Shown here piece after piece: positions 4,447 through 21,963 of a stretch of 64,000 bases of DNA (position 1 is the first letter of the stretch; the number at the start of each line of letters is the position of its first letter). Under the pieces are notes generated by a model. The model ran no database searches. It saw only the letters and a list, made by a program, of their open reading frames with translations, and had not been told where the DNA came from. Origin of the DNA: a virus; the IMG/VR virus record IMGVR_UViG_3300032462_001908, positions 1 to 64,000 of that record. One strand, given 5' to 3'. The translations under genes and the position numbers were made by a program.

Positions 4447-4759
4447 GTGGATATGTCCAGAATGCGGTACTCAAAATTTTATTAGTGCAATACAACAGGA
4501 GATTGACCCTGACAGAAAGCAAGAGATTTTAGATTCTATTAATAGTATGCTAAGTCATGATGATGATGATGATGATGCATCTGATGATAGAGAACTAGAG
4601 TATATATCTGTTCCTGATACGGTAGAATGTCTATTCTGCAAAAAGACTCTAGAAACTATTTTTGAAGATGAAGAAGATTTAGATGATTTTGATGACCTAG
4701 ACGAAGAGTATGATGATGAGGATGATGATGAGGATGATGAGGATAAAATACCTTGGTAA
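4415..4759 (+). CDS. Zinc-ribbon protein with polyacidic tail
   Basis: The 114-aa product has two CxxC knuckles, C-P-E-C near residue 14 and C-L-F-C near residue 73, which together could form one zinc ribbon. They are separated by an acidic linker with a run of six Asp, and the last 25 residues are almost all Asp/Glu before a final KIPW. The acidic tail may mimic DNA or bind basic proteins (inference). It overlaps the helicase end by 32 nt, with AGAGGGAA upstream of its ATG. The Asp runs create an antisense Ser-rich open frame that is not a gene. Confidence 0.7.
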   Translation: MEKARLIQAFEWICPECGTQNFISAIQQEIDPDRKQEILDSINSMLSHDDDDDDASDDRELEYISVPDTVECLFCKKTLETIFEDEEDLDDFDDLDEEYDDEDDDEDDEDKIPW

Positions 4760-5460
4760 TGAAATCGTACACTGATTTTATAGGTAAGCATAAAAATGAG
4801 ACTGCTTTTGTTATAGGAGCAGGAACTAGCTTGCTTGAAGTCTATAATAGCCCTCTTTTAGAGCATATACATAATCATATAATTGTATCCGTTAATTCTA
4901 GTTTTATTATGATGCCCTGGTTAGATGGATCACCAGAAAAAAGATATTGGATATCAAACGATGCGCTTTGCAGAAGATGGGATTGGTGGACTGCGTTAAA
5001 AAAATCATCATGTAATAAAATTGTAAGAGATAGTTGGAAACCTCATTTCCAAGAAATTCCAGAATTTTACACATTTCATATACGTCCCACAAGCGAAGGA
5101 GTTATCAATACAGATGATACCGGCTTATCTTACTGCTCTAGCGTACCAAGCGGCATAGACCTCTGTGTACAAATGGGATGCAAGCGTATATACCTTCTGG
5201 GTGTAGATCAATACATGATAGGTGAAAAGAGTCATTTCTGGCAATTCTGGCCAAAAGAGAAACAGCCAAGAAGAATAGATTATATGATGGCTCCTCATAA
5301 GCAACAAAGAGAAGCATTTAAGTATAATGATATGGCGTATCCTGCGTTAAAGGAATTTGCCGAAATAAGAAAGGTAAAGATATATAATTGCAATCCTCAA
5401 AGTAGGGTTGAAGTTTTTGATAAGATATCTTTTACTGATGCCATAAATGATATTAAATGA
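4759..5460 (+). CDS. DUF115/Maf-like protein 1
   Basis: A 233-aa protein starting at the ATG that overlaps the upstream TAA (TAATG). It shows the DUF115 (MptE-like) layout: an N-terminal AFVIGAGTSLLEV glycine motif corresponding to the family's 'GAGPSL', a VSVNSS strand, and the later SGIDLCVQMGCKRIYLLGVDQ element, which matches the 'G..A..LA..LG...I.LLG.D' motif. In bacteria DUF115 proteins include Maf flagellin glycosyltransferases that move nonulosonic acids, and a fold related to pterin pyrophosphokinases. The placement beside NeuA- and NeuB-like genes favours a sugar-transfer role (inference). It opens the glycan island and overlaps the second DUF115 gene by 14 nt. Confidence 0.7.
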   Translation: MKSYTDFIGKHKNETAFVIGAGTSLLEVYNSPLLEHIHNHIIVSVNSSFIMMPWLDGSPEKRYWISNDALCRRWDWWTALKKSSCNKIVRDSWKPHFQEIPEFYTFHIRPTSEGVINTDDTGLSYCSSVPSGIDLCVQMGCKRIYLLGVDQYMIGEKSHFWQFWPKEKQPRRIDYMMAPHKQQREAFKYNDMAYPALKEFAEIRKVKIYNCNPQSRVEVFDKISFTDAINDIK

Positions 5461-6202
5461 TTTAAAGAATCTTCATAAAGGTAAGCCTGCGTTTATAGTT
5501 GGTGCTGGTCCATCTCTTCATTTTACAGATACAAATATATTAAAACAAGGTATAACACTATCAGTTAATTCTTCTATTCAAAAGATAGAAACAGATTATT
5601 TCATAGGAGATGATATAGGTCTAAAAAACTGGTCGTACTATACTAAAAGACTTCCAAATCTAAATACTATATCCTTATTATATAAAGGGAAGTTGCAAGA
5701 TCATGCTTCTCATTTAAATCCTGATAAGGTTATATTTTTCAATCATAAAACATGGTATGAACCATCTAAGAAGAAATATCATGAAGATGGATTGGTTTTG
5801 ACTGAAGATCCAAATGAACCAATAATAGGTGCTAGAACGGCTGCTGGGACTGCTGTACATTTTGCATTTATTATGGGTTGCTCTCCAATAGTATTGGTGG
5901 GATGCGATTGTTGCTATCATAAAGTTGATAGGAAATTTTATCGTTACTATTGGCAGTATGAGGGAGAGGAAAAACCTTATAGGATTACTCATGAGCCTGT
6001 GTTTTCAACTCCAAATCGAGGAATGTATAGGGGGAAATGGATTGATTCTCATTGCATGTCTTTTATAGAATACTGGACAGCATTAGCAAAACAATGTGAT
6101 AAGCAGAATGTTAAAATAATAGACTGTTCAGATGGGTTACTGGATTGTTTTGAAAAGAAAAAATTAGAAAATTTACTTAATTTCGAAGATACAAATGATT
6201 AA
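5447..6202 (+). CDS. DUF115/Maf-like protein 2
   Basis: The 251-aa product repeats the architecture of the preceding gene: AFIVGAGPSLHF near the N-terminus (a textbook DUF115 glycine motif), then LSVNSSI, an acidic GDDIG stretch and AGTAVHFAFIMGCSPIVLVGCD near residue 140. The two neighbours are clearly paralogous in layout but have diverged well, so the duplication is old. A likely role is transfer or handling of an activated nonulosonate in the same pathway as the next gene. The start overlaps the previous stop region and its own end overlaps the NeuA-like gene by 8 nt. Confidence 0.7.
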   Translation: MILNDLKNLHKGKPAFIVGAGPSLHFTDTNILKQGITLSVNSSIQKIETDYFIGDDIGLKNWSYYTKRLPNLNTISLLYKGKLQDHASHLNPDKVIFFNHKTWYEPSKKKYHEDGLVLTEDPNEPIIGARTAAGTAVHFAFIMGCSPIVLVGCDCCYHKVDRKFYRYYWQYEGEEKPYRITHEPVFSTPNRGMYRGKWIDSHCMSFIEYWTALAKQCDKQNVKIIDCSDGLLDCFEKKKLENLLNFEDTND

Positions 6203-6917
6203 TAATAAAAAAATTATTGCAGTCATAACAGCAAGGGCAGGATCTTCTTTAACTGGTAAAAATTACAGAAGATTTTGCGATATGCCACTTATTTATTGGT
6301 CTGTCCTTGCTGCTCAATTAAGTGAATATGTAGATTCTGTTATAGTTAGTACGAACTGCAAAGAAGTAGAAAAAGTAGTGAAAGGAGGGAATGGACTGAG
6401 TGATAAAACAATTATTCTGAATAGGCCAGATGCATTATCTACAGCTACTAGTAAAAATGAATCTGCTCTTATTCATGCTTATTGGTGGTCATCTTTAAAA
6501 AAAGATTTAACAGCTGATATTATTATCAATCTTCAACCAACATCGCCAATTAGAAATAGGCATCTTATAGATAATTGTTTAGAATCTATGGTTAATGGAA
6601 ATCATGATAGCTTGCTTACGGTAAATAAATCAACTCCATTTATGTGGAAAAGCAAAGATAGCAAGTACTCTCCAATGTATGATGTACTAAATAGGCCAAT
6701 GAGACAAGATATTACTGATTCGGAGTTTTTGCTTTATGACAATGGGTGTCTATATATGATGAATTCCGATATCTTATTAGATAGAATGTGTAGAATAGGA
6801 TATAATCCCTATTTGTTTGAGACAACACAATATCAGTCTATGCAAATTGATACAGAAGAGGATTTTATTATTATGGAGTCAGTTTGCAAATCTGCATTAA
6901 ATAATATTCCAATATAG
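6195..6917 (+). CDS. neuA: Acylneuraminate cytidylyltransferase-like (NeuA)
   Basis: A 240-aa CMP-sugar synthetase of the NeuA/KdsB nucleotidyltransferase group, which couples CTP with a nonulosonic acid such as sialic, legionaminic or pseudaminic acid. The family's nucleotide loop is present as TARAGSSLTGKN (residues 12-23), with VIVSTNC, the LQPTSPIRN motif near residue 115, and a C-terminal QIDTEEDF that matches the family's metal-binding D-T-x-x-D. One oddity is that the loop reads SSLTGKN where most members have SKGIPGKN. The exact sugar cannot be told from sequence. The next gene follows after a 60-nt gap. Confidence 0.85.
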   Translation: MINNKKIIAVITARAGSSLTGKNYRRFCDMPLIYWSVLAAQLSEYVDSVIVSTNCKEVEKVVKGGNGLSDKTIILNRPDALSTATSKNESALIHAYWWSSLKKDLTADIIINLQPTSPIRNRHLIDNCLESMVNGNHDSLLTVNKSTPFMWKSKDSKYSPMYDVLNRPMRQDITDSEFLLYDNGCLYMMNSDILLDRMCRIGYNPYLFETTQYQSMQIDTEEDFIIMESVCKSALNNIPI

Positions 6918-6919
6918 CT

Positions 6920-6945
6920 TTATTAAAGGGTAGTCTTATTAAAGG
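6920..6945 (+). repeat. Direct repeat TTATTAAAGG in leader
   Basis: A perfect 10-nt direct repeat (TTATTAAAGG at 6920-6929 and 6936-6945) lies in the 60-nt gap upstream of the gene at 6978. The 16-nt period and the position suggest a protein-binding or promoter element, but in a genome this AT-rich the evidence is thin. No convincing sigma-70 -35 box accompanies it. Confidence 0.35.
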
Positions 6946-6977
6946 ATATATACATATTCTTTGCTAATTTATTATAT

Positions 6978-8126
6978 ATGAACTGGTATAAAACATCTCA
7001 ATTTTCCAGTATGTTCAAGGAGGCTATTAGAGCTTTAACTACTGAACAAAAAACATTGATAGAAAAATCTATTAAAGATAATCCTGGTGCTACTCAGAAA
7101 GCAATTTCTGAATTAACAAAAATACCATCAAATTACATAAGAGCCTATTTTCATCTAAATGGGCATAATAATACTAATAGAAAAAGATCAAAATTAAGAA
7201 CTCCTTCGTGGGCAGATAAGGATAGAATTTCTAAGATTATGCCATTATATGAAAATGGGCATGGAGTGTCAGCGATATCAAAAATGGTTAATATTCCTTA
7301 TAATGCTGTTGCCAGAACAATAGCTTATAATAGGAAATTAAATTCTACAGAAGATTATATTCCTATGCTTAAATATATGATATGGGATGGTTTGGGTATA
7401 GGATTTAGCGATATTATAGAGGGAAATAACGGAGATTACCAGAGATTAAAATATATTGGAAACATGATAGATAGGCAATTTGGAAATTCAAAAGATAAAT
7501 CTCATGCAAGACAGGCTCTTATAGAAAAATTAAATTTAAGAGGGGATTTTATCAACATGTTACAGGCTCCAGGTGCCGATGCTGGTTATGGAAATAATGC
7601 CGGAGAGTCTATGATTCATCATTTTGATGAAAATCCTATAAAAAGTCCTAATACTGTATTAACTAGAAATATACCTGATTTTTCAGCAAATGAAGATAAT
7701 ATAGCAAATATGTTGTTAGAAGGAAAATCTATAGAAGATATATCTAATGCTCTTAATGTATCTAAAGGTTATGTATCTAAAATAATCAGTGAAAGAGGAA
7801 TTCAATACAGTCTGAAAGGCTGGAGTGAAGAATCTAGAAAGAGAAAGTCAGAAAAGTCTAAATTAATGATGGAACAACTTAAGAATAACCCTGTATACAA
7901 AAAGAGACTTAGCGATGCTGCTAAGGCTAGATGGGAAAGAGTAAGGCAGGAAAAAGCAAAACAAGTTCCTGCAATACAGAATACACTTCCTGTGGCAATT
8001 CAGTCATATGCAGGGGATGATAAGAATCAATATCAAATTAGACAATTAAGAGAATTGCAGGATAGATTGAGAAACGAATTATTCTTATTTAATAGGAGGC
8101 AGCGATTTCTCGCTGCGTTATTATGA
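6978..8126 (+). CDS. Multi-HTH protein with MNWYKTS N-terminus
   Basis: A 382-aa protein starting MNWYKTSQF, an N-terminal tag also found in two other proteins here. Three segments look like helix-turn-helix units: residues about 22-60 (GATQKAISELTKIPSNYIRA), about 78-105 (GVSAISKMVNIPYNAVARTI) and about 243-275 (IEDISNALNVSKGYVSKIIS). The C-terminal 110 residues are basic (SRKRKSEKSK, AAKARWERVRQEKAKQ), as in DNA-binding tails of phage endonuclease-like proteins, but I see no nuclease motif. It interrupts the NeuA-NeuB order, so it may be a regulator or an inserted accessory gene. It ends in a hairpin that also serves the next gene's start. Confidence 0.6.
   Translation: MNWYKTSQFSSMFKEAIRALTTEQKTLIEKSIKDNPGATQKAISELTKIPSNYIRAYFHLNGHNNTNRKRSKLRTPSWADKDRISKIMPLYENGHGVSAISKMVNIPYNAVARTIAYNRKLNSTEDYIPMLKYMIWDGLGIGFSDIIEGNNGDYQRLKYIGNMIDRQFGNSKDKSHARQALIEKLNLRGDFINMLQAPGADAGYGNNAGESMIHHFDENPIKSPNTVLTRNIPDFSANEDNIANMLLEGKSIEDISNALNVSKGYVSKIISERGIQYSLKGWSEESRKRKSEKSKLMMEQLKNNPVYKKRLSDAAKARWERVRQEKAKQVPAIQNTLPVAIQSYAGDDKNQYQIRQLRELQDRLRNELFLFNRRQRFLAALL
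8094..8122 (+). promoter_or_regulatory. Structured ribosome-binding site for NeuB-like gene
   Basis: A consensus AGGAGG (8094-8099) lies 23 nt before the ATG at 8123, too far for normal initiation. Between them 8099-8116 can fold into a 7-bp GC-rich stem (GCAGCGA with TCGCTGC, loop TTTC). Folding would leave about six unpaired bases between Shine-Dalgarno and ATG, an ordinary spacing. This resembles the hairpin-bridged start of phage T4 gene 38. The fold is read directly; its function is inferred. Confidence 0.55.
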
Positions 8127-8974
8127 AAAAATCATGTAAAATAGTAGCAGAAGGGTGTTGCAATCATCTCGGAAAATTAGATGTAGCCATAGAAATGATT
8201 AAGATGGCTAAGATATGTGGTGCAGATTATATAAAATGGCAAAAAAGAAATCCAGTAGAATCTGTACCTAAAGAATGGCACAACAAGCCTCATCCTAATC
8301 AATCAAATGCTTTTGGATCGACATATTTAGAGCATAGGGTTAACCTAGAATTTTCTTTAGACCAGCATAAGGAACTTAAAAAAGTGTCTGACGACATTGG
8401 GATTGGTTACTCTTGCTCTGTTTGGGATATGACATCTGCTGCCGAGATAGCATCTTTAAATCCTGACTTTATTAAAATACCGTCTGCTGCCAATACATGT
8501 CTTAATATATTATCAATGCTTTTTAAGAGTTACGATGGTGATCTGCATATTTCTCTTGGAATGATGACAAAATTAGAACGTGAAAATCTTTTTGTATTTT
8601 TAGAGAATTACAAAGATAGAGTTGTTATTTATCATACTACAACAGAATATCCATGTCCATTTGACCATCTCTATTTGCGAGAAGTAGAGAACTTAAAGAA
8701 GATGTTTCCAGTCGTTGGATATTCTGGCCATAATTACGGTATAGCAGCTGATGTTATTGCCTATTCTCTTGGGGCATCTTGGATCGAACGTCATTTCTCT
8801 CTAGACCGTACTATGAAAGGAACTGACCATGCGGCATCTTTAGAACCAGATGGGCTTAGAAGGCTTTGTAGGGATATTGTGGCTATAGAGAAAGCTTTGA
8901 AGTTCAAAGAAAAAGACATGACAGATATGGAAGAATCTCAAAGATCAAAGCTTAAAATTTCAAATTCTCTTTAA
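8123..8974 (+). CDS. neuB: NeuB-like nonulosonate synthase, no SAF domain
   Basis: A 283-aa TIM-barrel synthase that condenses phosphoenolpyruvate with an N-acyl-hexosamine to give a nonulosonic acid. NeuB signatures: IVAEGCCNHLGKLDVA at the N-terminus (usually 'AEIG.NH.G'), ADYIKWQKR, the IKIPSAANT strand, GYSGHN, and ERHFSLDRTMKGTDHAASLEP near residue 225. Bacterial NeuB has about 340-350 residues because of a C-terminal antifreeze-like (SAF) domain that helps bind substrate in the dimer; here the protein stops right after the barrel. Either the domain is supplied elsewhere or this variant works without it. It shares 4 nt with the previous gene. Confidence 0.85.
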   Translation: MKKSCKIVAEGCCNHLGKLDVAIEMIKMAKICGADYIKWQKRNPVESVPKEWHNKPHPNQSNAFGSTYLEHRVNLEFSLDQHKELKKVSDDIGIGYSCSVWDMTSAAEIASLNPDFIKIPSAANTCLNILSMLFKSYDGDLHISLGMMTKLERENLFVFLENYKDRVVIYHTTTEYPCPFDHLYLREVENLKKMFPVVGYSGHNYGIAADVIAYSLGASWIERHFSLDRTMKGTDHAASLEPDGLRRLCRDIVAIEKALKFKEKDMTDMEESQRSKLKISNSL

Positions 8975-9223
8975 TGCCCTGCCTGAGTGGGTCATAAATT
9001 TATTTTCATCCAATTGACCAACATCTTCTTGAGTTCCTTGAATTTTTATAAATTTTTCTCCGTAGATAATACCGGAATCATCTTGTGAATATAGATATAT
9101 TATTTCTTGGAATACATCTAATATTACTTGGTTATTCTGTTCATCTATTGTACTGAATGAGCTAATTTTTATTATTTCTGTTCTAGTATTCAAGTTATCT
9201 CCATTATCTTGTGCAAATTTCAT
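8960..9223 (-). CDS. Leftward hypothetical protein, 87 aa
   Basis: This open frame fills the only gap in rightward coding between the NeuB-like and phosphatase genes and overlaps the end of the former by 15 nt, tail to tail. The protein is acidic and beta-like (TEIIKISSF, IIYLYSQDDSGIIYGEKFIKI) with no known domain. No Shine-Dalgarno is visible before its ATG, which lowers confidence. The second leftward gene of the window (30628-30936) has the same convergent overlap with its left neighbour, which argues that such small reverse genes are a normal feature of this phage. Confidence 0.5.
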   Translation of the reverse strand: MKFAQDNGDNLNTRTEIIKISSFSTIDEQNNQVILDVFQEIIYLYSQDDSGIIYGEKFIKIQGTQEDVGQLDENKFMTHSGRALKRI

Positions 9224-9264
9224 AATTTAGAATCAATAGTGTCGATATCATAAGGGAGATACAA

Positions 9265-9774
9265 ATGATTCTAAATTCAAAAAAGCTAATTATACTTGAT
9301 GTAGATGGCGTTTTAACTAATGGTATGTATTATGTTTCCAGTGATGGTAGGGTAACAAAGGGATTCTATACCAGAGACTTTTGGGCTATTGAAAAAGCTA
9401 CTACATTAGGTTTCGATGTTATTATATTAACATCCTCTTTTGATGGATGTATTAATAAAAAAGTCATATCTCTTGATAATGACAAGGTAAAGGTGGAAAG
9501 CTGTGTTAGTGACAAAATTACATGGATGGAAAACGTAATTATGCCGGAAAAAGAAGTTACTTGGGATGATGTAATCTATATCGGAGATGCCGAAAATGAC
9601 ATTGAATGCATGAAAAAAGCAAGATTTACGGCTTGTCCAAATGATGCCATACCTGCAATCAGGGAACTAAGTAATTATATATCTGATGCAAACGGCGGAA
9701 GTGGATCTGTTTATGAAATCATAACTAAAATCTTAAATGGAGATTTTAATTGCTATTTTGAAGGAAAGGAATAA
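9265..9774 (+). CDS. KdsC-like HAD phosphatase
   Basis: A 169-aa HAD hydrolase of the small, cap-less KdsC class. Motif I is LDVDGVLTNG (D12 nucleophile, D14 acid/base), followed by KdsC-type GRVTKGFYTRDFWAI; motif II is ILTSS, motif III the lysine region near residue 88, and motif IV GDAEND (D108, D112). KdsC removes phosphate from Kdo-8-P, and close relatives dephosphorylate Neu5Ac/KDN-9-P, so after the NeuB-like step this enzyme fits a 9-phosphate route (inference). The ribosome-binding site AAGGGAGA lies upstream. It overlaps nothing on the left because of the leftward gene. Confidence 0.85.
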   Translation: MILNSKKLIILDVDGVLTNGMYYVSSDGRVTKGFYTRDFWAIEKATTLGFDVIILTSSFDGCINKKVISLDNDKVKVESCVSDKITWMENVIMPEKEVTWDDVIYIGDAENDIECMKKARFTACPNDAIPAIRELSNYISDANGGSGSVYEIITKILNGDFNCYFEGKE

Positions 9775-9775
9775 T

Positions 9776-10327
9776 ATGGCAGCTAGTATATTAAAAATAG
9801 GAATAATGGATAATAATTTTGGATTATTAGACTGGCAGAGGTCAGTTATTAAGGTTATAGATGATTATGACGAGTTATCTGGCTCAGAACAGATGCAAGA
9901 GTTAAATCATTATGATAGGGCAAAGTCATGCGCTATTCGGGTTTGTTTTCCAAGGCGTTCTGGACATACGACTTTGGCAGTTTATTTAGCAAAACATTAT
10001 AATGCTTCTATCATATATACTGATACTGAGCATTACAGGGAGATAGACTCTCAATTAATAGATAATAAATATATAGAATTGGAAAAGCCTTTTAAGGATG
10101 CTAATAAATATAAGTCAGATATGGTGTCTGTTTATCATATCTGGCATGACATTATAAGATCAAGAACAGATTACAAATCAGCAGAAGGTCTTAATTCACT
10201 TAAGAATATTCTTTCAAATAAAAAAGTTATAGTTATAGATATGGCTAGTCTTATTACGGAAAGATATACGGAAGTATTAGATTGGTTATATAATATTACA
10301 AATGGCATCATAGTTATGCTAGGATAA
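9776..10327 (+). CDS. P-loop-like protein with altered Walker A
   Basis: I chose the ATG at 9776, which follows AAGGAAAGGA. The 183-aa product has the outline of a small P-loop NTPase: a strand and loop PRRSGHTT at residues 59-66 where a Walker A (GxxxxGK[T/S]) would sit, followed by helix TTLAVYLAKH, strand SIIYTDTE and a late hydrophobic strand KVIVIDMA resembling Walker B. The invariant lysine is replaced by His64 and the first glycine by Pro/Arg, so ATP binding may be lost or altered. Phage terminase, helicase and packaging ATPases have similar 'PRxSGKTT' loops. Function unknown. Confidence 0.5.
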   Translation: MAASILKIGIMDNNFGLLDWQRSVIKVIDDYDELSGSEQMQELNHYDRAKSCAIRVCFPRRSGHTTLAVYLAKHYNASIIYTDTEHYREIDSQLIDNKYIELEKPFKDANKYKSDMVSVYHIWHDIIRSRTDYKSAEGLNSLKNILSNKKVIVIDMASLITERYTEVLDWLYNITNGIIVMLG

Positions 10328-10336
10328 GGATAAAAA

Positions 10337-10801
10337 ATGGCAATCAGCACAACAGGTAGAGCTATAAAAGTAAAAACTAAAGCTTATGTTATATCAAAAA
10401 ATCATTTGCCAGAAGTCATAAATGAATATAATCATTTAAGATTTCAGTTTTCGGATGGTTCCGAGAGGCATATGTTGTTTACTAATAACGAAATGACAAG
10501 AGCTTTCAGAAGAGCTAATTCTAAAATAAGATCAAAAGAAAAGCCTAAGACAACATGGATACATGAAGTTTGGTATGAAGGTGTTGTTGAATTAGATAAA
10601 AATGAAGTAAAAGATATCATTATTAATAAGAATCTTCCGAATATAGCAAAGGTATTTAATCATGTTAGATTAAATATTAATGGATCGGATATGCATTTAT
10701 TATTTACCAAAAGTGACATCAGAGCAGCGTTATTGAGATCATCTCAATTAGATATTAAGCTTCCGAAAACATCATATATTGAAACAGATACTTTAAATTG
10801 A
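10337..10801 (+). CDS. Hypothetical protein with internal duplication
   Basis: A 154-aa basic protein built from two copies of one unit. Copy 1 (about residues 23-60) reads LPEVINEYNHLRFQFSDGSE then RHMLFTNNEMTRAFRRA; copy 2 (about 98-135) reads LPNIAKVFNHVRLNINGSD then MHLLFTKSDIRAALLRS. Conserved positions are L-P, the N-H-[LV]-R strand, a G-S turn, H-[ML]-L-F-T and a closing amphipathic helix. No known family recognised. The ATG follows GGATAAGGATAAAA. Confidence 0.65.
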   Translation: MAISTTGRAIKVKTKAYVISKNHLPEVINEYNHLRFQFSDGSERHMLFTNNEMTRAFRRANSKIRSKEKPKTTWIHEVWYEGVVELDKNEVKDIIINKNLPNIAKVFNHVRLNINGSDMHLLFTKSDIRAALLRSSQLDIKLPKTSYIETDTLN

Positions 10802-10807
10802 TATCAT

Positions 10808-12835
10808 ATGACAGATAAAATAAGAATTATTCATGCTATAGATAGTCTTGGCATAGGTGGAGCTCAAACTATGATGTTTGAGCTTCATGATGCTATTGCT
10901 AAATATTATCCAGAATATGTTCAAAATATAGTATTACTTAATAAGGAAAAAAAGGATACTAGATTTATAGAATCTTATGGAATAAAATATTCAAATATAA
11001 ATTCATCTTTATTTTCTAAAACTATTCTTTCATATAATGAAAACGAAAAAACAGTTTTAATATATCATAAGTTAATGTGTTCTAAGACTACTATATATAA
11101 TAATTTATTTTTGAAAGTTCCAATAATAGTAGTTAATCATACTTACACAGAGTCTAATGTATTCAATAGAATAAATAAGTGTACTTGTGTTGTTTCTGTT
11201 TCCGACTATATGGGAAAGATGATACGCAAAATATGTCCAAATTCTCATCATTTCACTATTATTAATGGAATAAATGGATATAAGTATGATGACATACCGT
11301 CTTTGGTAAGAGAGGATAAGGATTGTTTATTAACAGGACGTATAAATTCTCTTAATACTATTAAATTTTCAGAAAGTTGGCAAAAATGGATTTCCAAATT
11401 ATCTTTAACAAAAAGAGTTATTCATGAGTATGTTGGCGGTGGTCATCATTATAAAAAGGCATGTTCTCAGGTTTTAGAAATAAATAAGGTTAGTAATAAC
11501 GAAGTTAGGATGATTGGACCGATTCATGATTTGCAAACAAAAATATCTATGGTTAAAAGTTGGGATTTGTTTTTATATGAAATAAACAGACATGAGGGAG
11601 TTAGTATATCAATACTAGAAGCTTTGGCTTGTGGTGTTCCTGTAATATGTAGTAATCATTTTGGCAATAAAGAAATAATCAAAGATGGTATTAATGGGTA
11701 TGTTTTTGAATCTAGAGATCACGCAGCAAAAATATTAGAAGATTTATGTATACATCCTGAAAAGTTAGATGCCTTAAAAAAAACTACATTAGAAGATTTT
11801 AAAAATAACCTTGATGCAAAAATAGTTGCATCAAATTATGTAGAAGTTATAAATTATGCTCTTTCTAATTTTACAATTTTAAAATCTAATTTGAAGAAAA
11901 GAATGAAAGAAAATAATAGAAAACATTTTGCAATAAAACAAGTTAATAATAACAAAAGATTCGTAACAGAAAATAGTAAAAAGAATATAAAAATTAAAAA
12001 TTTACTTAGCACAAGTGATATAGAAATGGATTCTGATAATAAAAAACATGAAAGCAATCATGATAGTAAGGACAAATTCTCAATACTAACTGCTGGTTAT
12101 AATAATGGAAGATATATTAATGATTGGGTTAATTCTATTATAAAGCAAAAATACAGACCATTAGAAGTTGTATATGTTAATGACAATTCTTCAGATAATA
12201 CATTATCAATTCTTGCTAATTTATATAAGAAATTTTTAGAAGAAAACATAGAATTAAAGGTTATAAATAATCCCACGAGACAATTTTGTGGATCATCATA
12301 TCATATAGCTTTAGAAAATGCTACCGGACAATTTTTTGGAGTTTTGGATAGTGATGATATGTTATGTAATGATGCAGTTGAATATATAATGTCTATTTAT
12401 AAAAGTAGAGAAGACATTGCCTGGATATACACTCAGCATTATTACTGTTCTTCAGATATGAAACCAATAAAGGAAGGATTATGTACCCCTCCGAAACCTG
12501 GCAAGTCTCTTTTGCAAATGGGAAAAGAAGGTCGCCATACTTATTCTCACTGGAGAACATTTTCAAATAGATATCCTAAACTGGAAAAGATATTTTGCAA
12601 GGGGTTAAAATCAGCAGTAGATAAGTATATGGGATACAGATTGGAAGAATTTTCTAAAGGCATGTTTACTAATGAGGTTTGTTATCTATATCGATGTAAT
12701 AGCCAAAAGTCTATTTCAAAAACAGAAAAGACAAGATTAACTTGGAAAAATGTTATAGAAGAGGCTATTAATCGTAGAAGAAAATATAAATTAAAATCAT
12801 ATGAAATAGAAAAACTTGAAAGAAAGCCAAAATGA
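10808..12835 (+). CDS. Bifunctional glycosyltransferase, GT4-GT2 fusion
   Basis: A 675-aa two-enzyme chain. The N-terminal half is a GT-B retaining glycosyltransferase of the GT4 type: IGGAQTMMFELHDA near residue 16, and the donor-site EGVSISILEALACGVPVICS with the E-x7-E pair near residues 263 and 271. A basic, asparagine/lysine-rich linker of about 65 residues follows. From about residue 424 a GT-A family 2 domain begins (FSILTAGYNNGRYI, VYVNDNSSDNT) with a D-S-D-D metal site at 514-517. It probably adds two successive sugars to one glycan (inference). It overlaps the next gene by 4 nt (ATGA). Confidence 0.85.
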   Translation: MTDKIRIIHAIDSLGIGGAQTMMFELHDAIAKYYPEYVQNIVLLNKEKKDTRFIESYGIKYSNINSSLFSKTILSYNENEKTVLIYHKLMCSKTTIYNNLFLKVPIIVVNHTYTESNVFNRINKCTCVVSVSDYMGKMIRKICPNSHHFTIINGINGYKYDDIPSLVREDKDCLLTGRINSLNTIKFSESWQKWISKLSLTKRVIHEYVGGGHHYKKACSQVLEINKVSNNEVRMIGPIHDLQTKISMVKSWDLFLYEINRHEGVSISILEALACGVPVICSNHFGNKEIIKDGINGYVFESRDHAAKILEDLCIHPEKLDALKKTTLEDFKNNLDAKIVASNYVEVINYALSNFTILKSNLKKRMKENNRKHFAIKQVNNNKRFVTENSKKNIKIKNLLSTSDIEMDSDNKKHESNHDSKDKFSILTAGYNNGRYINDWVNSIIKQKYRPLEVVYVNDNSSDNTLSILANLYKKFLEENIELKVINNPTRQFCGSSYHIALENATGQFFGVLDSDDMLCNDAVEYIMSIYKSREDIAWIYTQHYYCSSDMKPIKEGLCTPPKPGKSLLQMGKEGRHTYSHWRTFSNRYPKLEKIFCKGLKSAVDKYMGYRLEEFSKGMFTNEVCYLYRCNSQKSISKTEKTRLTWKNVIEEAINRRRKYKLKSYEIEKLERKPK

Positions 12836-13749
12836 TTAAATTACTAATTGACTCTAGAAAATTTCATGGAGGTCCATTTGTCTTTAGAAATAGAATTTCT
12901 AAAGCGTTATCCGCCATAGATGGCATAAAAGTAATCAGAAATCGCAGAGAAGATTTTGATGTAGAATTATCTATTATTAGATGTCTTAGCAATCATGGAA
13001 AACCAATAATTTTAAGATTAGACGGATGCTATTATGATCCTTCCGCTTTATATCAAAATAAAGAAATATCTTCATCTATAAAAAAATCTAAACACATCAT
13101 ATTTCAATCCGAATTCTCAATGAAAATGATTAATAGTATTATACCTGCTAGGGCAAAAAACTGTAGCATAATTCATAATGGTATTGACATGAATTATATA
13201 TCTTCTATTAAGAGTAATCCCTCAATAGAACCTGGATCATTTGTAGCAGTTGCTAAATGGAGATACAATAAGCGTCCCATGTCAACTATAAATGGTTTCG
13301 TAGCGTCAGGAATAGATAGAAAATTATATATTATAGGCGATGGCATAGATAATAGTCTAATAAATAGGTATAAAAATGTTTGTATTTTAGGTAGTAAAAC
13401 ACCAGAAGAAACATTATCTATCATGAAATCTTGTCAATACCAGATTCATTTATGTCATATAGATTCCTGCCCAAATGCAGTTGTAGAGGGGTTGGCGTGT
13501 GGCCTAAATGTATTATGCACCAATTTAGGAGGAACGACAGAGTTGGTTAAGAAAGATGGTATTATTTTAGATATAGATAGATGGAATTTTATTCCAAAGA
13601 AGTTTAGTAATTTAGATAAGATTGAATCCCGTATCGTAGCTGATGGAATTTATGAAATATTGAAAAAAACAAAAAGAGCAGATAGGCAAGATTTAGATAT
13701 TAATCTAGTTGCTCAGAAATACGCAGATATTATAAAAAGTACAATATGA
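12832..13749 (+). CDS. GT4-like glycosyltransferase A
   Basis: A 305-aa GT-B type glycosyltransferase. The N-domain shows RKFHGGPFVFRNRISKAL and RLDGCYYD, and the C-domain shows AKWRYNKRP and an SCPNAVVEGLACGLNVLCTN donor-binding stretch near residue 215, ending in GGTTELV. It is shorter than typical GT4 enzymes (about 370 aa). It is clearly related to the gene at 18184, which shares the RLDG-YF/YYD, 'C/WCPNA-VE' and 'GG[TS].E' landmarks, so this island grew by glycosyltransferase duplication. ATGA overlap at both ends points to coupled translation. Confidence 0.8.
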   Translation: MIKLLIDSRKFHGGPFVFRNRISKALSAIDGIKVIRNRREDFDVELSIIRCLSNHGKPIILRLDGCYYDPSALYQNKEISSSIKKSKHIIFQSEFSMKMINSIIPARAKNCSIIHNGIDMNYISSIKSNPSIEPGSFVAVAKWRYNKRPMSTINGFVASGIDRKLYIIGDGIDNSLINRYKNVCILGSKTPEETLSIMKSCQYQIHLCHIDSCPNAVVEGLACGLNVLCTNLGGTTELVKKDGIILDIDRWNFIPKKFSNLDKIESRIVADGIYEILKKTKRADRQDLDINLVAQKYADIIKSTI

Positions 13750-14495
13750 CACATATATCTGTTATAACAACTTTGTTTAATTATAAGAACTATATAGGAA
13801 GCTGTATAGAATCTTTTTTATCTCAAAATTTTACCGATTCTGAGATGATTATTATTGACGATTGCTCAACAGACAATCCTATGAAATCTATAAAAAAATA
13901 TATCTCTGAAAGAGTACGCTATTATAGATTAGATAAAAATATGGGTTATTCTTTCGCAAAGAACTTTGGTATAAAGCATGCAAAATTCGAGATACTATCT
14001 ATGCTTGATGCAGATGATATGTTATATAAAGATAGTTTGCATAGCAGGTATAAAAAGATTCAAAGCGGATTTGATTTTGTTCATGGTCCAGCATTAGATT
14101 TGGAAAACGGAAAATTAAAATTATCAAAGTTATGGGCTAAATGGCTAAAAAGCTCAAAAGATGAAAAAAGCTATAAAATGATTCATGCCCAAACGGTAAT
14201 GTTAAAAAAAGATATACATCGCAAGGTTGGGTTATATGATGAATCTTTAAAATGCAAAAGTGATAGAGAAATGTGGGCTAGAATTATGAGTAGGCAAGAT
14301 GAATTCAAGGTATCTTATGTTAATGATCCAGTATCAATATATAGAGTTCATAAGAATCAGATGCACCGTTCAGACTGGAAGATAAAAAATAACGATAGAT
14401 TACAAAGGGATGTTTTAGATCGCATTGCTCGTAGGCGAAAAAATCTATCGGATTGTACTATGTTAGGAGACGAAAATGGATTTGAAAAATGTTAA
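13746..14495 (+). CDS. GT2 family glycosyltransferase
   Basis: A 249-aa GT-A fold transferase: the N-terminal ISVITTLFNYKNYIGSCIES, the nucleotide-binding IIIDDCSTDN, and the metal-binding MLDADDML at about residue 91. After the acceptor region, a short C-terminal segment with SDREMWARI and a YRVHKNQMH motif is typical of GT2 enzymes that build surface polysaccharide. No membrane segments are present, so it acts in the cytoplasm on a soluble or peripheral acceptor. It overlaps the dehydrogenase gene by 20 nt. Confidence 0.88.
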   Translation: MTHISVITTLFNYKNYIGSCIESFLSQNFTDSEMIIIDDCSTDNPMKSIKKYISERVRYYRLDKNMGYSFAKNFGIKHAKFEILSMLDADDMLYKDSLHSRYKKIQSGFDFVHGPALDLENGKLKLSKLWAKWLKSSKDEKSYKMIHAQTVMLKKDIHRKVGLYDESLKCKSDREMWARIMSRQDEFKVSYVNDPVSIYRVHKNQMHRSDWKIKNNDRLQRDVLDRIARRRKNLSDCTMLGDENGFEKC

Positions 14496-15351
14496 AATTG
14501 GCGTTATTGGGTGTGGAATTTTAGGAACATCTGTTGCAAGAGGCTTTATGACGTATTGTTCAATTATGACATACGATATAGATCCTAAAAGGTGTTCTAA
14601 TTCAATTGGAGAAGTATTAGAAAGTGATATAGTCTTTATATGCTTGCCAACTCCTATGATAAGTGTAGAAGGTGGAGAATGCAATTTATCTATTATAAAT
14701 GAATTTTTTATTAAGGCAGATAGCGTTTTATTAGAAGTATCAAAAAAGCCAATTTTTGTTATTAAATCCACAGTACCTGTTGGTACAACAAAATCATTAT
14801 TAGAAGAATTTCCTGATTTAAATATAGTTCATAGTCCTGAATTTTTAACGGCAAGATGCTCTCTAATAGATTTTATTACATCTGCTAGAAACATCGTCGG
14901 CGGCTCTGATGAAAAGTCTGTTAATTTTATATCTGATTTGTACAAATCTAGATTTCCAGGATGTCCATGCTATACAATGAGTTCAGATGAATCTGAATTT
15001 GTAAAATACGTAGCTAATTGCTTCTTTTCTACAAAAGTTATGTTTTTTAATGAAATGAAACTTTTAAGCGATAAGGTCGGATTAAATTGGGATAATATAA
15101 TTAATGGAGTTATGTCAGATGGAAGAATAGGAAAAACGCATTATCAAGTTCCTGGGCATGATGGAGCTTTAGGCATAGGAGGAACATGTTTTAGTAAAGA
15201 CATAAATGCTTTAATTAAAACATTTGAAAATAATGGTTTAGATCCTATTATTATAAAATCTGTGTGGGAACAAAATAAGAACATACGTCCTAAGAAAGAT
15301 TGGGATTGGGCAAATAATAAATCTGCTGTATCTGCTGTGGAAAAGAAATAA
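14476..15351 (+). CDS. Short UDP-sugar dehydrogenase-like protein
   Basis: A 291-aa member of the UDP-glucose/GDP-mannose dehydrogenase family. The NAD-binding G12-C-G14-I-L-G17 loop, FICLPTPM, the IKSTVPVGTT strand and HSPEFLTA are all present, and the catalytic cysteine is C238 in GGTCFSKD (the family usually has GGxCxPKD; the proline is Ser here). The chain stops about 50 residues later, so the C-terminal nucleotide-sugar-binding domain of full-length enzymes (about 390-450 aa) is absent. It may act on an unusual donor or be partly inactive. TAGGAG lies upstream of its ATG inside the previous gene. Confidence 0.75.
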   Translation: MDLKNVKIGVIGCGILGTSVARGFMTYCSIMTYDIDPKRCSNSIGEVLESDIVFICLPTPMISVEGGECNLSIINEFFIKADSVLLEVSKKPIFVIKSTVPVGTTKSLLEEFPDLNIVHSPEFLTARCSLIDFITSARNIVGGSDEKSVNFISDLYKSRFPGCPCYTMSSDESEFVKYVANCFFSTKVMFFNEMKLLSDKVGLNWDNIINGVMSDGRIGKTHYQVPGHDGALGIGGTCFSKDINALIKTFENNGLDPIIIKSVWEQNKNIRPKKDWDWANNKSAVSAVEKK

Positions 15352-15352
15352 C

Positions 15353-16021: not shown

Positions 16022-16043
16022 AAAAAAAGAATTAAGATTATTT

Positions 16044-16229
16044 ATGTGCGGTGTTTCTAAGACAATATTTAATCACTCTAATTTTTATAGTAAAGGTAAA
16101 TATATTAGAAATCAATATATAGACTACTGCATCAAGAATGGTATGGAAATACCAAAAAATAGAAAAATATACTATAAGAAAAGTCCTATTTCTCTAGATG
16201 AATACCTTAAAATAAGGAATAGTAAATGA
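16044..16229 (+). CDS. Hypothetical protein, 61 aa
   Basis: A small basic protein rich in Tyr, Lys and Asn, with no recognised domain and no membrane segment. No clear Shine-Dalgarno precedes the ATG, but its TGA overlaps the next gene's ATG (ATGA), the arrangement used throughout this island. It could be an independent small gene or the trimmed end of a former larger one, since remnants are common nearby. Confidence 0.5.
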   Translation: MCGVSKTIFNHSNFYSKGKYIRNQYIDYCIKNGMEIPKNRKIYYKKSPISLDEYLKIRNSK

Positions 16230-17068: not shown

Positions 17069-17072
17069 TATT

Positions 17073-18116: not shown

Positions 18117-18187
18117 GAGTATTATTTACAGAAGACATAGATAGAGTTGACTCTGGAAAGCATAAGTTTTTAAAGGCATATATATGA
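18113..18187 (+). pseudogene. N-terminal remnant of a GT gene
   Basis: A 24-codon frame (MRVLFTEDIDRVDSGKHKFL...) overlaps the previous stop by ATGA and the next ATG by ATGA. It matches the N-terminus of the following glycosyltransferase (MKIVFSEDISLNNSGKHKFL) at most positions, including the exact SGKHKFL. The simplest reading is a tandem duplicate of that gene from which everything after codon 24 has been deleted. Because its own start and stop remain coupled, it could still serve as a leader that passes ribosomes to the next gene. Confidence 0.7.
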
Positions 18188-19095
18188 AAATTGTTTTTAG
18201 TGAAGATATATCTCTTAATAATTCAGGGAAACACAAATTCCTTAATAGATTAAGTAGTATTTTTCAAGATATGGGAATAAAAATTGTTCCTAATAATGGG
18301 GATATACTTTTGCATTTAGGTCGTAATTTTGAGAATATATCATCCAAAATAAAAGTCATGCGTCTTGATGGTTTGTATTTTAATAAAGATCAGCCTTATC
18401 AAAAGAGAAACTCTAAATTACAAAAATCTATAAATAAAAGCAATGCGGTTATTTATCAAAGTATATTTTGCAAACAAGCATATGAAATGATTTTGAATGT
18501 AGATAAGAAGAATATATGTATTTTCAATGGAGCTGATCCTAATGAATTTCCACAACGTGATCCTGGTTATTTCTTTTTTGCACAATGCAACTGGAGACCG
18601 CATAAAAGGCTAGTAGATATTTGTAAATCTTTTATATACTCGGTAGATAGAGGGTTAAATGCATCTTTAAAAATAGCAGGAAATGTTGATAAACCAATTA
18701 AGCATCCTAATATAGAATATACCGGATGGATGGATAAATCTACGTCATCAAAGTATCTCTCAAGAGCATTGGCTACTATACATTTATCCTGGATAGACTG
18801 GTGTCCGAATGCGATGGTAGAGTCTGTTGTTGCAAAGTGTCCTATAATATATTCTATGTCTGGTGGATCACCAGAAATCGGTAACGGCAATGGTATAGGT
18901 ATTAAAGATACTCAGTGGGACTTCAACCCTTGTAGATTATATAAACCACCAAAGATGGATTATGATGAAATTTCTTTAGCATTGAAAGAATATTCAGAGA
19001 ATAAGACTATATTAAAATATGATGAAAAATTCGATATACGAAACATAGCAAATCAGTACATTGATTTTTTTACAGGATTATTAAATGAAAATTGA
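18184..19095 (+). CDS. GT4-like glycosyltransferase B
   Basis: A 303-aa GT-B glycosyltransferase, paralogue of the gene at 12832. Landmarks: SGKHKFLNRLS, RLDGLYFN, QSIFCKQAYE, the IFNGADPNEF hinge, CNWRPHKRL in the second Rossmann domain, and WIDWCPNAMVESVVAKCPII followed by SGGSPEIG at the donor site. The size is again about 70 residues under the GT4 norm. ATGA overlap with the remnant upstream and an 11-nt overlap with the methyltransferase downstream show coupled expression. Confidence 0.8.
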   Translation: MKIVFSEDISLNNSGKHKFLNRLSSIFQDMGIKIVPNNGDILLHLGRNFENISSKIKVMRLDGLYFNKDQPYQKRNSKLQKSINKSNAVIYQSIFCKQAYEMILNVDKKNICIFNGADPNEFPQRDPGYFFFAQCNWRPHKRLVDICKSFIYSVDRGLNASLKIAGNVDKPIKHPNIEYTGWMDKSTSSKYLSRALATIHLSWIDWCPNAMVESVVAKCPIIYSMSGGSPEIGNGNGIGIKDTQWDFNPCRLYKPPKMDYDEISLALKEYSENKTILKYDEKFDIRNIANQYIDFFTGLLNEN

Positions 19096-19672
19096 CATAG
19101 GTGGACAAAAAGGACGTAATCATTTTGGAGGACAAAGATGGGAAACTGTGGATATTCGAAAAGATGCCGATTATCAAATTGATATAATGAATGACAAGTT
19201 GCCCTTTGAAGATAATTCTATAGAAGCCGTTTATACTTCTCATACTTTAGAACATATTTTTCCAGATATTCTTCCTTTCGTATTATCTGAGTTTAGTAGG
19301 GTTCTTAAAAAGGGTTGTAAAGTAAGAATTGTAGTTCCTGACATAGATAAGGCTATTAAGGCATATATTAAAGATGATACAAAATATCTTAAAGACAGTA
19401 GGAATCCAACAAAATTGCCATGTCTTCCTGACATGGCAATTTGTTACCTTTCGTCATGGTTTTTTTCTTATAAAGAAGATGCGAAGACTCATGAAAGATT
19501 AATTGGCGGGCATGTAAATGTGTTTAATTTTGAGTTATTAAAGTATTATATGGAAAAAGCAGGATTTAAGAATATAGAGCGTAAGTCTCTTAATGATTGC
19601 TCGGATGAATTTAAAAATCATGACCATGATAGATATAAAGATTGTTCTATTTACACAGAAGGAGTTAAGTAA
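19085..19672 (+). CDS. SAM-dependent methyltransferase (type 11-like)
   Basis: A 195-aa class I methyltransferase with a short motif I (IDIGGQKGRNHFGGQ), the acidic TVDIRKDADY, LPFEDNSIEAVYTSHTLEHI in the motif IV position, and FSRVLKKGCKVRIVVPD. This layout (a short N-terminus and the 'SHTLEH' motif) is usual in methyltransferases of O-antigen and exopolysaccharide loci. A perfect 13-bp inverted repeat sits in the middle of the coding sequence (19412-19442). Its ATG overlaps the end of the previous gene by 11 nt. Confidence 0.8.
   Translation: MKIDIGGQKGRNHFGGQRWETVDIRKDADYQIDIMNDKLPFEDNSIEAVYTSHTLEHIFPDILPFVLSEFSRVLKKGCKVRIVVPDIDKAIKAYIKDDTKYLKDSRNPTKLPCLPDMAICYLSSWFFSYKEDAKTHERLIGGHVNVFNFELLKYYMEKAGFKNIERKSLNDCSDEFKNHDHDRYKDCSIYTEGVK
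19412..19442 (+). other. Perfect 13-bp inverted repeat inside CDS
   Basis: AAATTGCCATGTC (19412-19424) and its exact reverse complement (19430-19442) flank a 5-nt loop (TTCCT). No U-run follows, so it is not a standard terminator on this strand. It lies in the KLPCLPDMAIC part of the methyltransferase. Confidence 0.85.
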
Positions 19673-20223
19673 TGGGATATATAGATAAGCCAGCAAGACC
19701 AAATCTTAGATATGCATTTCTTTATGGGATGCTTAGGGCTTACGGTTTGAAAGATGATGCATTAATTGTAGACTGCGGTTGTTCACAGGGGGTTAATGCT
19801 GAAGTCTTAATTTTTAATGGATTTAAAGTTTTGGGATTTGATATTCTTAAAAATTCTGTTAATCTTGCAAAAAACGTTGGTCTTAAGGCTCAGATAGGCA
19901 ATATTATAGAGGGATTACCATTAGAAGATAATACGGCTGACCTGTTCATTTGCTCTGAAACTTTAGAGCATCTGAGAGATACTACTGAGATAAAAGCTGT
20001 TAAGGAAATAAATAGAATTACAAAACCAGGCGGTCTTATCGCAGTAACTGTTCCTTCTCATAAGGAAAGCTCATTAAAAAATAAATATCATCATCAGTAT
20101 CTTGGTATGGAAAAATTAATTGAATTATTTGGGTCACATGAGATACTTTGGACTGGAAAATTTCATAAAAATGCGAATCCAGATAAGGGAAGTTCTGTTC
20201 TCGTTGCTAGATGCAAAAAATGA
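19672..20223 (+). CDS. SAM-dependent methyltransferase
   Basis: A 183-aa class I methyltransferase: motif I LIVDCGCSQGVNAE (about residues 31-44), an LGFDILKNSV acidic loop, IIEGLPLEDNTADLFICSETLEH, and INRITKPGGLIAVTVPSH. It differs from the previous methyltransferase in having a complete motif I region. The start ATG overlaps the preceding TAA by one base. A sugar or glycolipid substrate is likely by context. Confidence 0.85.
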   Translation: MGYIDKPARPNLRYAFLYGMLRAYGLKDDALIVDCGCSQGVNAEVLIFNGFKVLGFDILKNSVNLAKNVGLKAQIGNIIEGLPLEDNTADLFICSETLEHLRDTTEIKAVKEINRITKPGGLIAVTVPSHKESSLKNKYHHQYLGMEKLIELFGSHEILWTGKFHKNANPDKGSSVLVARCKK

Positions 20224-20951
20224 ATATATTAACAGAGCAAGAGTTTCTTAGTAAGAAAACTTCTGATACTATAGTTATATATGGTAGCGGTAACTCTATT
20301 AATAAAATTACTGATACACAGAAGATGAGGCTGGGGGAATATAACTCTATATCATTTAATTGGTTTTGTAAGTCTAAAATTCAAACAACATTTTATACCA
20401 TAAGAGAGCAGTCTAATTCTCCAAAGCGTATTTCCAGTGATGAAACAGAAGATGAATTATATAATTTATTAAATAGTTATTATAAGGACAGTTGCTTGAT
20501 AGTCCATAATTTGTCAAAATCAATACACAAAAATATTGTAACATCTTATCATAATAAATTAGATAATTTCATTCAGTCAGGTATAGTTGTTAACGATATT
20601 AAATTATATATGAATAATGATGGTATAGATAAATGGAAAAAATATAATATTTTTAAGGATGGCGTAATACATGGGAAAATGACCCTAAATGGGATTTTGC
20701 ACATAGTATCATGGATGGGATATAAGAAGATTTTATTTGCCGGAATAGATTTGTTAGATTCTAGATATTTCTGGCTTAATAATAAGACCAGATATACCGT
20801 TAGTAAAAAGGGACGAAGTTGCAAGTCTAGACACATATTGGCTACTCAAACACTAGACCTAATTAAGCAGACCAGATCTATATTTGGTATCGATATGGCT
20901 ACTGTAAGTGATAAATCTTTACTAATAAAGATTATGGAAATATGGAAATGA
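20220..20951 (+). CDS. DUF115-like protein 3
   Basis: I take the ATG at 20220, which overlaps the upstream TGA. The 243-aa product has a glycine motif at the N-terminus (IVIYGSGNSINKI), SISFNWFC, and a later LNGILHIVSWMGYKKILFAGID that fits the DUF115 'A..LA...G...I.L.G.D' element. It is more divergent than the two copies at 4759 and 5447. Proteins of this sort occur in capsule and sialyltransferase-like loci, so an alternative is a sialyltransferase-related enzyme. It sits at the end of the glycan island and leads by ATGA into a broken glycosyltransferase gene. Confidence 0.55.
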   Translation: MNILTEQEFLSKKTSDTIVIYGSGNSINKITDTQKMRLGEYNSISFNWFCKSKIQTTFYTIREQSNSPKRISSDETEDELYNLLNSYYKDSCLIVHNLSKSIHKNIVTSYHNKLDNFIQSGIVVNDIKLYMNNDGIDKWKKYNIFKDGVIHGKMTLNGILHIVSWMGYKKILFAGIDLLDSRYFWLNNKTRYTVSKKGRSCKSRHILATQTLDLIKQTRSIFGIDMATVSDKSLLIKIMEIWK

Positions 20952-21302
20952 GAATAATATCTATAGCAGATAAAATTGGCAGAGTGCAGTATAGTAGAAT
21001 GAAATTGTTAGAAAATTACATGACATTTGACAAATTCCATACTGCATCTTTGTATAACAACAAAAGTAGGAAATACGATAGAAATAATTGAAGATAATAT
21101 CAATGGATATTATTGGAATGATATTCCAGAAGATTTATGTACATCTGTATATAATCGCATTAATGATGTTATATCCAAAAAACTATATTATTTAATAAGG
21201 GAAGAAGCAAGGCGCTCAATAGAGTCATGGGATTGGATTCATCAATCTAAGGCTTGGGTGAACTTCTTTGAAAGTTATGATAGAATTAAAAGAAAAGATT
21301 GA
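20948..21302 (+). pseudogene. Broken GT4-like gene, middle deleted
   Basis: Two fragments in different frames look like the two ends of one glycosyltransferase. The first, 20948-21091, starts by ATGA overlap and encodes a GT-type N-terminus (MRIISIADKIGRVQYSRMKL). The second is open in another frame to 21302 and carries a GT4 donor-site tail (GNTIEIIEDNINGYYWND, followed by a C-terminal helix). A normal enzyme would have more than 200 residues between these parts, so a large internal deletion with a frame change is inferred. The open frame of the second half has only a TTG as a possible start. Confidence 0.65.
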
Positions 21303-21963
21303 AGCGTTTATTATAACCAACGGAAGGTCTACATTTTCATTTTGTTTAAAATCTTTTTTAGAACAGCAGAATGTAAAAATAAAACACTATATACATAAAG
21401 ATATGTCCTGGATCGACGCTAATAGGAAAATACTTGATGTATGTTCTACTCCTTATTTTTTAAGAATAGATGATGATATGCTTATGCATCCAAGATGTAT
21501 AGAATTTATGTCTCAATCCATTGATGGACAAAAAGATAATATAGCAATGAGGCAGTGGATGCTATGGGAGCCATATACTTCTAAATCCAGAAAAGGTATT
21601 AAAATATATAACACTAGCATAGCTAGAGAGATAGGTTTCAGAATTAATCATCTTGGTAAAATTGATAAACCATTTTTTCAAGATTTGAAAAAAACTAGAT
21701 ATATAGTTAAAGTAGATCCAGATGTTGTTGCCATACACGCATGCTCGGATCATGCTGAACATATAAAGTATGCAGTTATGAGAGGGGAAGATAAAGGGAA
21801 AAATTTCGAGAAGAAGAGAAAAGAGTTAAAAAACACAATTTCTTCTTTTAATAAATCAATAGAATACCAGTACAATATGGCTACAGATTATGTTGAAAAG
21901 TATAATGATAATAATAATACTAATTTTCATAGGTTTTTAAGAATACAGAATATTTTAAAATGA
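21277..21963 (+). CDS. GT-A (GT2-like) glycosyltransferase
   Basis: A 228-aa protein; I use the ATG at 21277 rather than the in-frame TTG at 21268. The core reads IEAFIITNGRSTFSFCLKS, then a FLRIDDDMLMHPR segment with the D-D-D metal-binding motif near residue 66. The donor-binding N-terminal strand is typical of GT2, but the family consensus is weak and the C-terminal 60 residues are a charged helix (RGEDKGKNFEKKRKEL). It overlaps the broken gene by 26 nt and closes the glycan island. Confidence 0.65.
   Translation: MIELKEKIEAFIITNGRSTFSFCLKSFLEQQNVKIKHYIHKDMSWIDANRKILDVCSTPYFLRIDDDMLMHPRCIEFMSQSIDGQKDNIAMRQWMLWEPYTSKSRKGIKIYNTSIAREIGFRINHLGKIDKPFFQDLKKTRYIVKVDPDVVAIHACSDHAEHIKYAVMRGEDKGKNFEKKRKELKNTISSFNKSIEYQYNMATDYVEKYNDNNNTNFHRFLRIQNILK

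Follow-up and report, generated by a model that had tools for sequence, protein, structure and literature searches.

The 64,000-nucleotide stretch of DNA analyzed here (the window) covers positions 1 to 64,000 of IMG/VR virus record IMGVR_UViG_3300032462_001908, a linear virus contig of 68,229 bases, and carries genes predicted to make, activate and transfer a nonulosonic (sialic-acid-type) sugar. The set lies directly downstream of a UvrD-type helicase gene (2389-4446, + strand; PHROG 1967), which serves as a landmark of its position. It begins with two putative cytidine monophosphate (CMP)-nonulosonate transferases that each consist of a single DUF115 domain: the Maf-like DUF115-1 (4753-5460, +; PF01973 25.5 bits, below the cut-off of 34.6; PHROG 4603) and DUF115-2 (5447-6202, +; 50.3 bits, above that cut-off). 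There follow a NeuA-like CMP-nonulosonate cytidylyltransferase (6195-6917, +; PF02348 47.2 bits, cut-off 22.6), a NeuB-family nonulosonate synthase without a SAF domain (8123-8974, +; PF03102 207.9 bits, cut-off 22.1) and a haloacid dehalogenase (HAD) phosphatase that resembles both KdsC and phosphatases of 2-keto-3-deoxynononic acid (KDN) 9-phosphate (9265-9774, +). An initial annotation had read these genes and those behind them as one 17-kb nonulosonate pathway. Pfam and NCBIfam profiles find the NeuB-like, NeuA-like, KdsC-like and DUF115 genes where it had placed them, and a phage-borne pathway with candidate DUF115 transferases is supported. Its extent has to be revised, as the conserved unit is the first 5 kb only (4753-9774), with loosely attached cargo behind it that is mostly not common to relatives.

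A module kept behind the same helicase

Relatives were gathered by scanning viral contigs with DUF115-1 and then with alignments of NeuB and of DUF115-2; as single sequences, DUF115-1 retrieved one locus and DUF115-2 none, and alignment queries were required. Counting several contigs of one phage as one and leaving out the window, 15 distinct viral contigs encode DUF115-2, NeuA and NeuB together in the same order. Profile searches of the fetched loci give the order helicase, DUF115-1 where present, DUF115-2, NeuA, NeuB, KdsC, with the phosphatase in 14 of the 15 contigs, the same helicase upstream in 14, DUF115-2 in all and DUF115-1 recognized in nine; NeuB lies on the opposite strand in several. 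A helix-turn-helix protein encoded between NeuA and NeuB in the window (6978-8126, +; PF13384 30.6 bits) has no counterpart seen in the relatives and stands outside the conserved set. Because the first five genes keep a fixed order across many diverged viral contigs, the module is not a chance assembly. The closest phage, a 68,136-base viral contig retrieved by the DUF115-1 scan (L006, identical to L095, L128 and G001), has relatives of most genes at 26-4446 of the window and all five module genes, with identities of 59% for NeuB, 50% for DUF115-1, 44% for NeuA, 43% for DUF115-2, 42% for the helicase and 34% for KdsC, so that NeuB is more conserved than the helicase.

The residues that we take, from family knowledge, to be catalytic are invariant among the phage relatives: E10, K38, K118, S121, H203, H224 and D235 of NeuB, the LQxTS, RxMRQ and QID motifs of NeuA, and D12, D14, K84, D108 and D112 of the phosphatase. 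Because they are kept while the phage copies are roughly 33-59% identical to those of the window, selection seems to maintain the function of all three enzymes, which are presumably active. In a quick-mode NeuB tree 14 of the 16 module NeuBs cluster, without strong support, and that of L139 is placed elsewhere. NeuB has been exchanged relative to the backbone in another relative (L103), as the topology of the NeuB tree is rejected for the helicase and that of the helicase tree for NeuB (approximately unbiased test, each p < 0.001). The swapped L103 type (4232-5134) has HTDA in place of GTDH at the conserved Asp.

The largest module contigs measure 548, 494, 351 and 334 kb. The source contig, probably a fragment, encodes a tail tube protein, a head-tail adaptor match, PhoH, topoisomerase I and the UvrD helicase. 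Of ten contigs tested, four encode relatives of a virion-type protein (56681-59962) at 37-41% identity. Eleven module-carrying relatives were tested for a volactin-like actin, and seven have one, among them all of those above 160 kb. Since the module recurs in synteny in contigs of up to 548 kb, together with the shared virion-type protein and actin, we regard the window as a piece of a jumbo phage of an uncultured lineage and the module as part of the inherited core equipment of that lineage; a small lytic phage does not fit. The actin-like protein of the window (39236-40309; PF25216, E 3.5e-59) adjoins head-tail genes and has relatives of about 27% identity in GenBank phages of 485 and 595 kb. 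Neither the module nor the tested virion protein has a close relative among 50,697 GenBank phages searched at the DNA and protein level, and a PF03237 search for a terminase was negative in all contigs, where the terminase is perhaps too divergent.

The contigs are all metagenomic and uncultured, and related bacterial loci are common, so we considered whether the genes could belong to the host, result from misassembly or be a recent bacterial acquisition without lasting phage function. We give this very little credence: it is contradicted by the constant placement of the module after this one helicase in contigs that stem from many samples, by the virion-type protein and actin that these contigs share, by the conserved active sites and by a gene composition not seen in bacterial loci.

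Synthase, phosphatase and the identity of the sugar

NeuB and NeuA both exceed their Pfam cut-offs and miss the NCBIfam equivalog cut-offs. NeuB (283 aa) scores 175.3 against 399.7 for NnaB and 115.3 against 340.3 for PseI, and a Pfam search finds no match to the C-terminal SAF domain by which classical NeuB, PseI and LegI synthases are recognized. The closest solved relative of NeuA is a CMP-N-acetylneuraminate synthetase, and its best NCBIfam model, PseF, gives 67 bits, below the cut-off of 206.

The bacterial relatives of the synthase are more informative. We examined the loci of the 80 best of 569 confirmed relatives, and all counts are lower bounds since some flanks end at contig ends. 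These synthases are mostly about 290 aa long; NeuA is encoded nearby in at least 69 of the 80 loci, a phosphatase in at least 62, the two as one fused open reading frame (ORF) in at least 58, and a NeuC homolog in at least three. The viral NeuB loci searched contain no NeuC match. Such a combination of synthase, phosphatase and cytidylyltransferase without NeuC is also the gene set of Bacteroides thetaiotaomicron, in which mannose-6-phosphate and phosphoenolpyruvate are described as yielding KDN-9-phosphate, followed by dephosphorylation and formation of CMP-KDN (PMC6200933). The same mannose-6-phosphate route has been shown for Prymnesium (PMC6200933). Because SAF-less synthases of this family are accompanied by a phosphatase and very seldom by NeuC, a KDN-type 9-phosphate route from host mannose-6-phosphate is probably a better account than a missing NeuC step; the phosphatase in the cluster and the absence of NeuC fit such a route, which would be fed by a common host metabolite. 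The initial annotation was thus right that NeuC is lacking and that a host precursor is needed, but the lack is probably no gap, and the likely precursor is mannose-6-phosphate rather than N-acetylmannosamine. We hypothesize that NeuB would join phosphoenolpyruvate to the phosphate of a six-carbon sugar, with mannose-6-phosphate from the host as the likeliest substrate, to give a nonulosonate-9-phosphate (KDN-9-phosphate), that the KdsC-like phosphatase would remove the phosphate, and that NeuA would convert the free sugar into a CMP-sugar.

KDN is a probable rather than a proven product, because the window phosphatase does not discriminate, scoring 86.8 bits on the KDN-9-phosphatase model (NF058599) and 85.8 on KdsC, its two best NCBIfam models. 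It is quite possible that the product is another ulosonate, either an N-acetylneuraminic (Neu5Ac), legionaminic or pseudaminic type whose precursor the host supplies or an eight-carbon sugar like 3-deoxy-D-manno-octulosonic acid. The equal phosphatase scores allow for this, the phosphatase of a Geobacter relative scores better as KdsC than as KDN-9-phosphatase, PseF is the best model for NeuA, and Leptospira is thought to make Neu5Ac through a 9-phosphate route (PMC3438082). Against it stand a synthase fold of the NeuB family and not of KdsA, the near-absence of NeuC among the best bacterial relatives, the distance by which NnaB and PseI are missed, and the fused NeuA-phosphatase of a viral relative (L098), the sole protein to pass the KDN-9-phosphatase cut-off (180.7 bits against 180); an Aquimarina fusion reaches 169.7. 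In a 332-kb viral contig (L002), NeuB and NeuA occur together with a KdsA-like synthase and a cytidylyltransferase resembling KdsB, with many glycosyltransferases close by (9995-12287 and 19666-20439, as read from ORFs).

Candidate transferases, acceptor and proposed function

By modelled fold, the two DUF115 proteins lie close to sialyltransferases and also to a pterin kinase. The DUF115-1 model (predicted local distance difference test, pLDDT, 71) matches Campylobacter Cst-II best among solved structures (Foldseek E 1e-4, probability 1.00, template modelling score 0.46), then the pterin kinase MptE, then the Maf protein 5mu5 and mammalian sialyltransferases, and its PHROG is annotated as 'alpha-2,3-sialyltransferase'. 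The DUF115-2 model (pLDDT 87) matches MptE (8sd5) first, then ST8SiaIII and Cst-II, with probabilities of 0.89-0.97 and E-values of 0.007-0.08. The DUF115-1 model thus shows a fold like that of Cst-II, a resemblance that for DUF115-2 is only suggestive. Both resemble the Maf central domain (PF01973), itself reported to be Cst-II-like (PMC11339370), and the phage DUF115 proteins are single-domain proteins of 235-251 aa rather than three-domain Maf proteins.

Because DUF115/MptE-like domains are widespread in other uncultured phages, the domain alone proves nothing, and the models are compatible with a pterin-kinase-like enzyme as well as supporting a sialyltransferase-like one. If these proteins were MptE-like pterin or other pyrophosphokinases, they would have no relation to the sugar genes. 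The rank of MptE in both searches and the present Pfam name of PF01973, MptE-like, speak for that possibility, which we nevertheless consider improbable, given that DUF115 adjoins NeuA, NeuB and the phosphatase in 15 further contigs, that DUF115-1 matches Cst-II best and Maf too, and that its PHROG (4603) carries a sialyltransferase annotation. It is the company of NeuA and NeuB that tips the balance toward the sialyltransferase-like enzyme.

Convincing transmembrane segments are absent from all cassette proteins, as both peaks (in the proteins starting at 5447 and 10808) fall within globular domains, and an initiating sugar-phosphate transferase (PF02397) and a Wzx flippase (PF01943) are both absent from seven module contigs searched, including the 494-kb one. 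Lipid-linked polymer synthesis by the phage was rejected on these negative searches; together with the lack of membrane proteins they make a new lipid-linked polymer from the phage alone unlikely. Because neither transferase nor flippase was found, cytoplasmic glycosylation is favored, perhaps of virions, with the capping of host precursors as the other candidate. The two DUF115 proteins, with their Cst-II/Maf-like fold, would then transfer the sugar in the cytoplasm, most likely to phage virion proteins or to glycans built by the neighboring glycosyltransferases. A LamG-containing, serine-rich protein of 1074 aa with tracts of up to 85% Ser/Thr per 40 residues is encoded just past the window (64302-67526 of the source contig, G000; L014 4302-7526), and a similar ORF follows it.

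We rank virion decoration slightly above remodeling of the host surface. The latter would use the same CMP-nonulosonate pathway to cap host lipopolysaccharide, capsule or glycoprotein precursors during infection and so block superinfection or mask receptors. The numerous glycosyltransferases, methyltransferases and nucleotide-sugar enzymes nearby agree with it, as does the precedent of prophage epaA/epaB, by which a host capsular nonulosonate is altered (PMC12053666). We think it less likely than not, since the module contigs lack an initiating transferase and flippase, the cassette lacks membrane proteins and the glycosyltransferases of the cargo are not retained along with the module, although each of these observations is compatible with the use of host machinery.

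Our preferred interpretation, held with a little more confidence than doubt, is that a module of an uncultured jumbo-phage lineage makes and transfers a nonulosonic sugar, by a KDN-type 9-phosphate route and with Cst-II/Maf-like transferases. Several observations count against it. The phosphatase misses the cut-offs of both models it resembles (180 for KDN-9-phosphatase). The sialyltransferase matches of DUF115-2 are not significant by E-value, and the DUF115 fold also resembles that of MptE. A candidate for the Cst-II catalytic histidine, which we take to be His188, occurs in five of six DUF115-2 proteins and is not conserved at the equivalent place in DUF115-1. The serine-rich LamG tail protein was rejected as a common acceptor, since the structural regions retrieved for G001, G003 and G008 have no Ser/Thr tract like it. 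Finally, every module contig comes from an uncultured virus and most are fragments.

Phage nonulosonate genes are easily mistaken for sporadic auxiliary genes. Here, across the diverse members of a jumbo-phage lineage, a set for synthesis, dephosphorylation, CMP-activation and transfer is fixed at one genomic place, and this implies a need that persists; no description of such a module turned up in the open-access literature, the search leaving aside subscription papers and preprints. We tentatively propose, with more doubt than confidence, that phages throughout the lineage use single-domain, sialyltransferase-like DUF115 enzymes to attach a KDN-type sugar of their own making to their virion proteins in the host cytoplasm, a form of protein glycosylation native to bacterial viruses. 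If the sugar is on virions, these phages would have a surface chemistry of a new kind, with a bearing on receptor binding, particle charge and recognition. The DUF115 proteins would also offer minimal models of the Maf/DUF115 transferases, which are poorly understood.

Cargo genes and comparison with known systems

The glycosyltransferases and methyltransferases behind the core are mostly variable cargo. Those after 10.8 kb are mostly not common to relatives; the dehydrogenase recurs in L103, and a GT4-GT2 fusion glycosyltransferase (10808-12835, +) is an occasional module companion with a full-length relative of 43% identity in L103 and relatives of its N-terminal part in L100 and L135. Next come a GT4 (12832-13749, +) and a GT2 glycosyltransferase (13746-14495, +) and the nucleotide-sugar dehydrogenase (14476-15351, +; NDP-sugDHase 154.5 bits), whose N-terminal and central domains are matched and whose C-terminal domain finds no match. 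A GT4-like protein and two methyltransferases follow (18184-20223, +); the GT4-like protein (18184) is weak in Pfam and shares a homolog in L114 with that at 12832. Profile matches bear out the dehydrogenase and all three methyltransferases first noted (15353, 19085 and 19672). The "six or more" glycosyltransferases were a generous count: four ORFs (10808, 12832, 13746 and 18184) with five GT domains between them hold up, and the rest are a weak match at 21268 and a short ORF that is apparently a C-terminal GT4 remnant (21027-21302), which suggests turnover among the cargo. Likewise, only DUF115-2 of three supposed DUF115-type proteins exceeds the PF01973 cut-off; DUF115-1 and the divergent DUF115-like protein DUF115-3 (20211-20951, +; 18.8 bits) fall below it, the latter having two homologs next to another phage NeuB/NeuA set (L114).

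Beyond this run, the window encodes a GDP-L-fucose-synthase-like protein (28657-29622; 376 bits, cut-off 500) and a sugar-nucleotide epimerase-like protein (31297-32247), which by their families would be a further nucleotide-sugar supply, and an RlaP-type nucleotidyltransferase of an RNA repair pathway family (23321-24205). In three relatives, peptide-deformylase-like ORFs were identified by eye a few kb from the module (L006 17612-18175, L113 5722-6327 and L103 2580-3176). A different ORF of L006 (18917-19642) is pseudopilin-like, with N_methyl and weak DUF1559 matches, and is possibly a clue to the host. Intein-like insertions were seen by eye in the L103 genes for the helicase and a CxxCxxCC protein (7509-10451 and 11105-12993).

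Among known systems, the KDN pathway of B. thetaiotaomicron has the same three activities by family and likewise dispenses with NeuC, and the bacterial homologs of the phage NeuB adjoin NeuA-phosphatase ORFs, some of which score near the KDN-9-phosphatase cut-off. Unlike the bacterial relatives found here, which mostly fuse NeuA and the phosphatase, the phage encodes them separately, with a phosphatase below that cut-off, and places DUF115 transferases beside them. The Maf flagellin O-glycosyltransferases (Magnetospirillum, 5mu5) share the PF01973 central domain, the fold neighborhood and the genomic link to CMP-nonulosonate synthesis, whereas the phage proteins lack the Maf N- and C-terminal domains and their locus has no flagellin. 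Cst-II (GT42) is the top solved-structure match of DUF115-1, but identity is about 14%, the catalytic histidine is not clearly present and sequence does not indicate membership.

Phage genes that act on nonulosonates have a precedent in the Acinetobacter prophage genes epaA and epaB; those convert host-made pseudaminic acid, whereas the window phage itself carries genes for the synthase, the phosphatase and the CMP-activation step. The 484-kb phage LR756508.1 carries four GT29 sialyltransferase-type ORFs flanking NeuB (L003 11256-16077; PF00777 E 8e-32 for ORF 13987). Its transferases are of another family, its NeuB is 32% identical and the stretch fetched has no NeuA or phosphatase match, but it too has NeuB beside several sialyltransferases in a phage of about 0.5 Mb, an independent pairing of phage NeuB with sialyltransferases.

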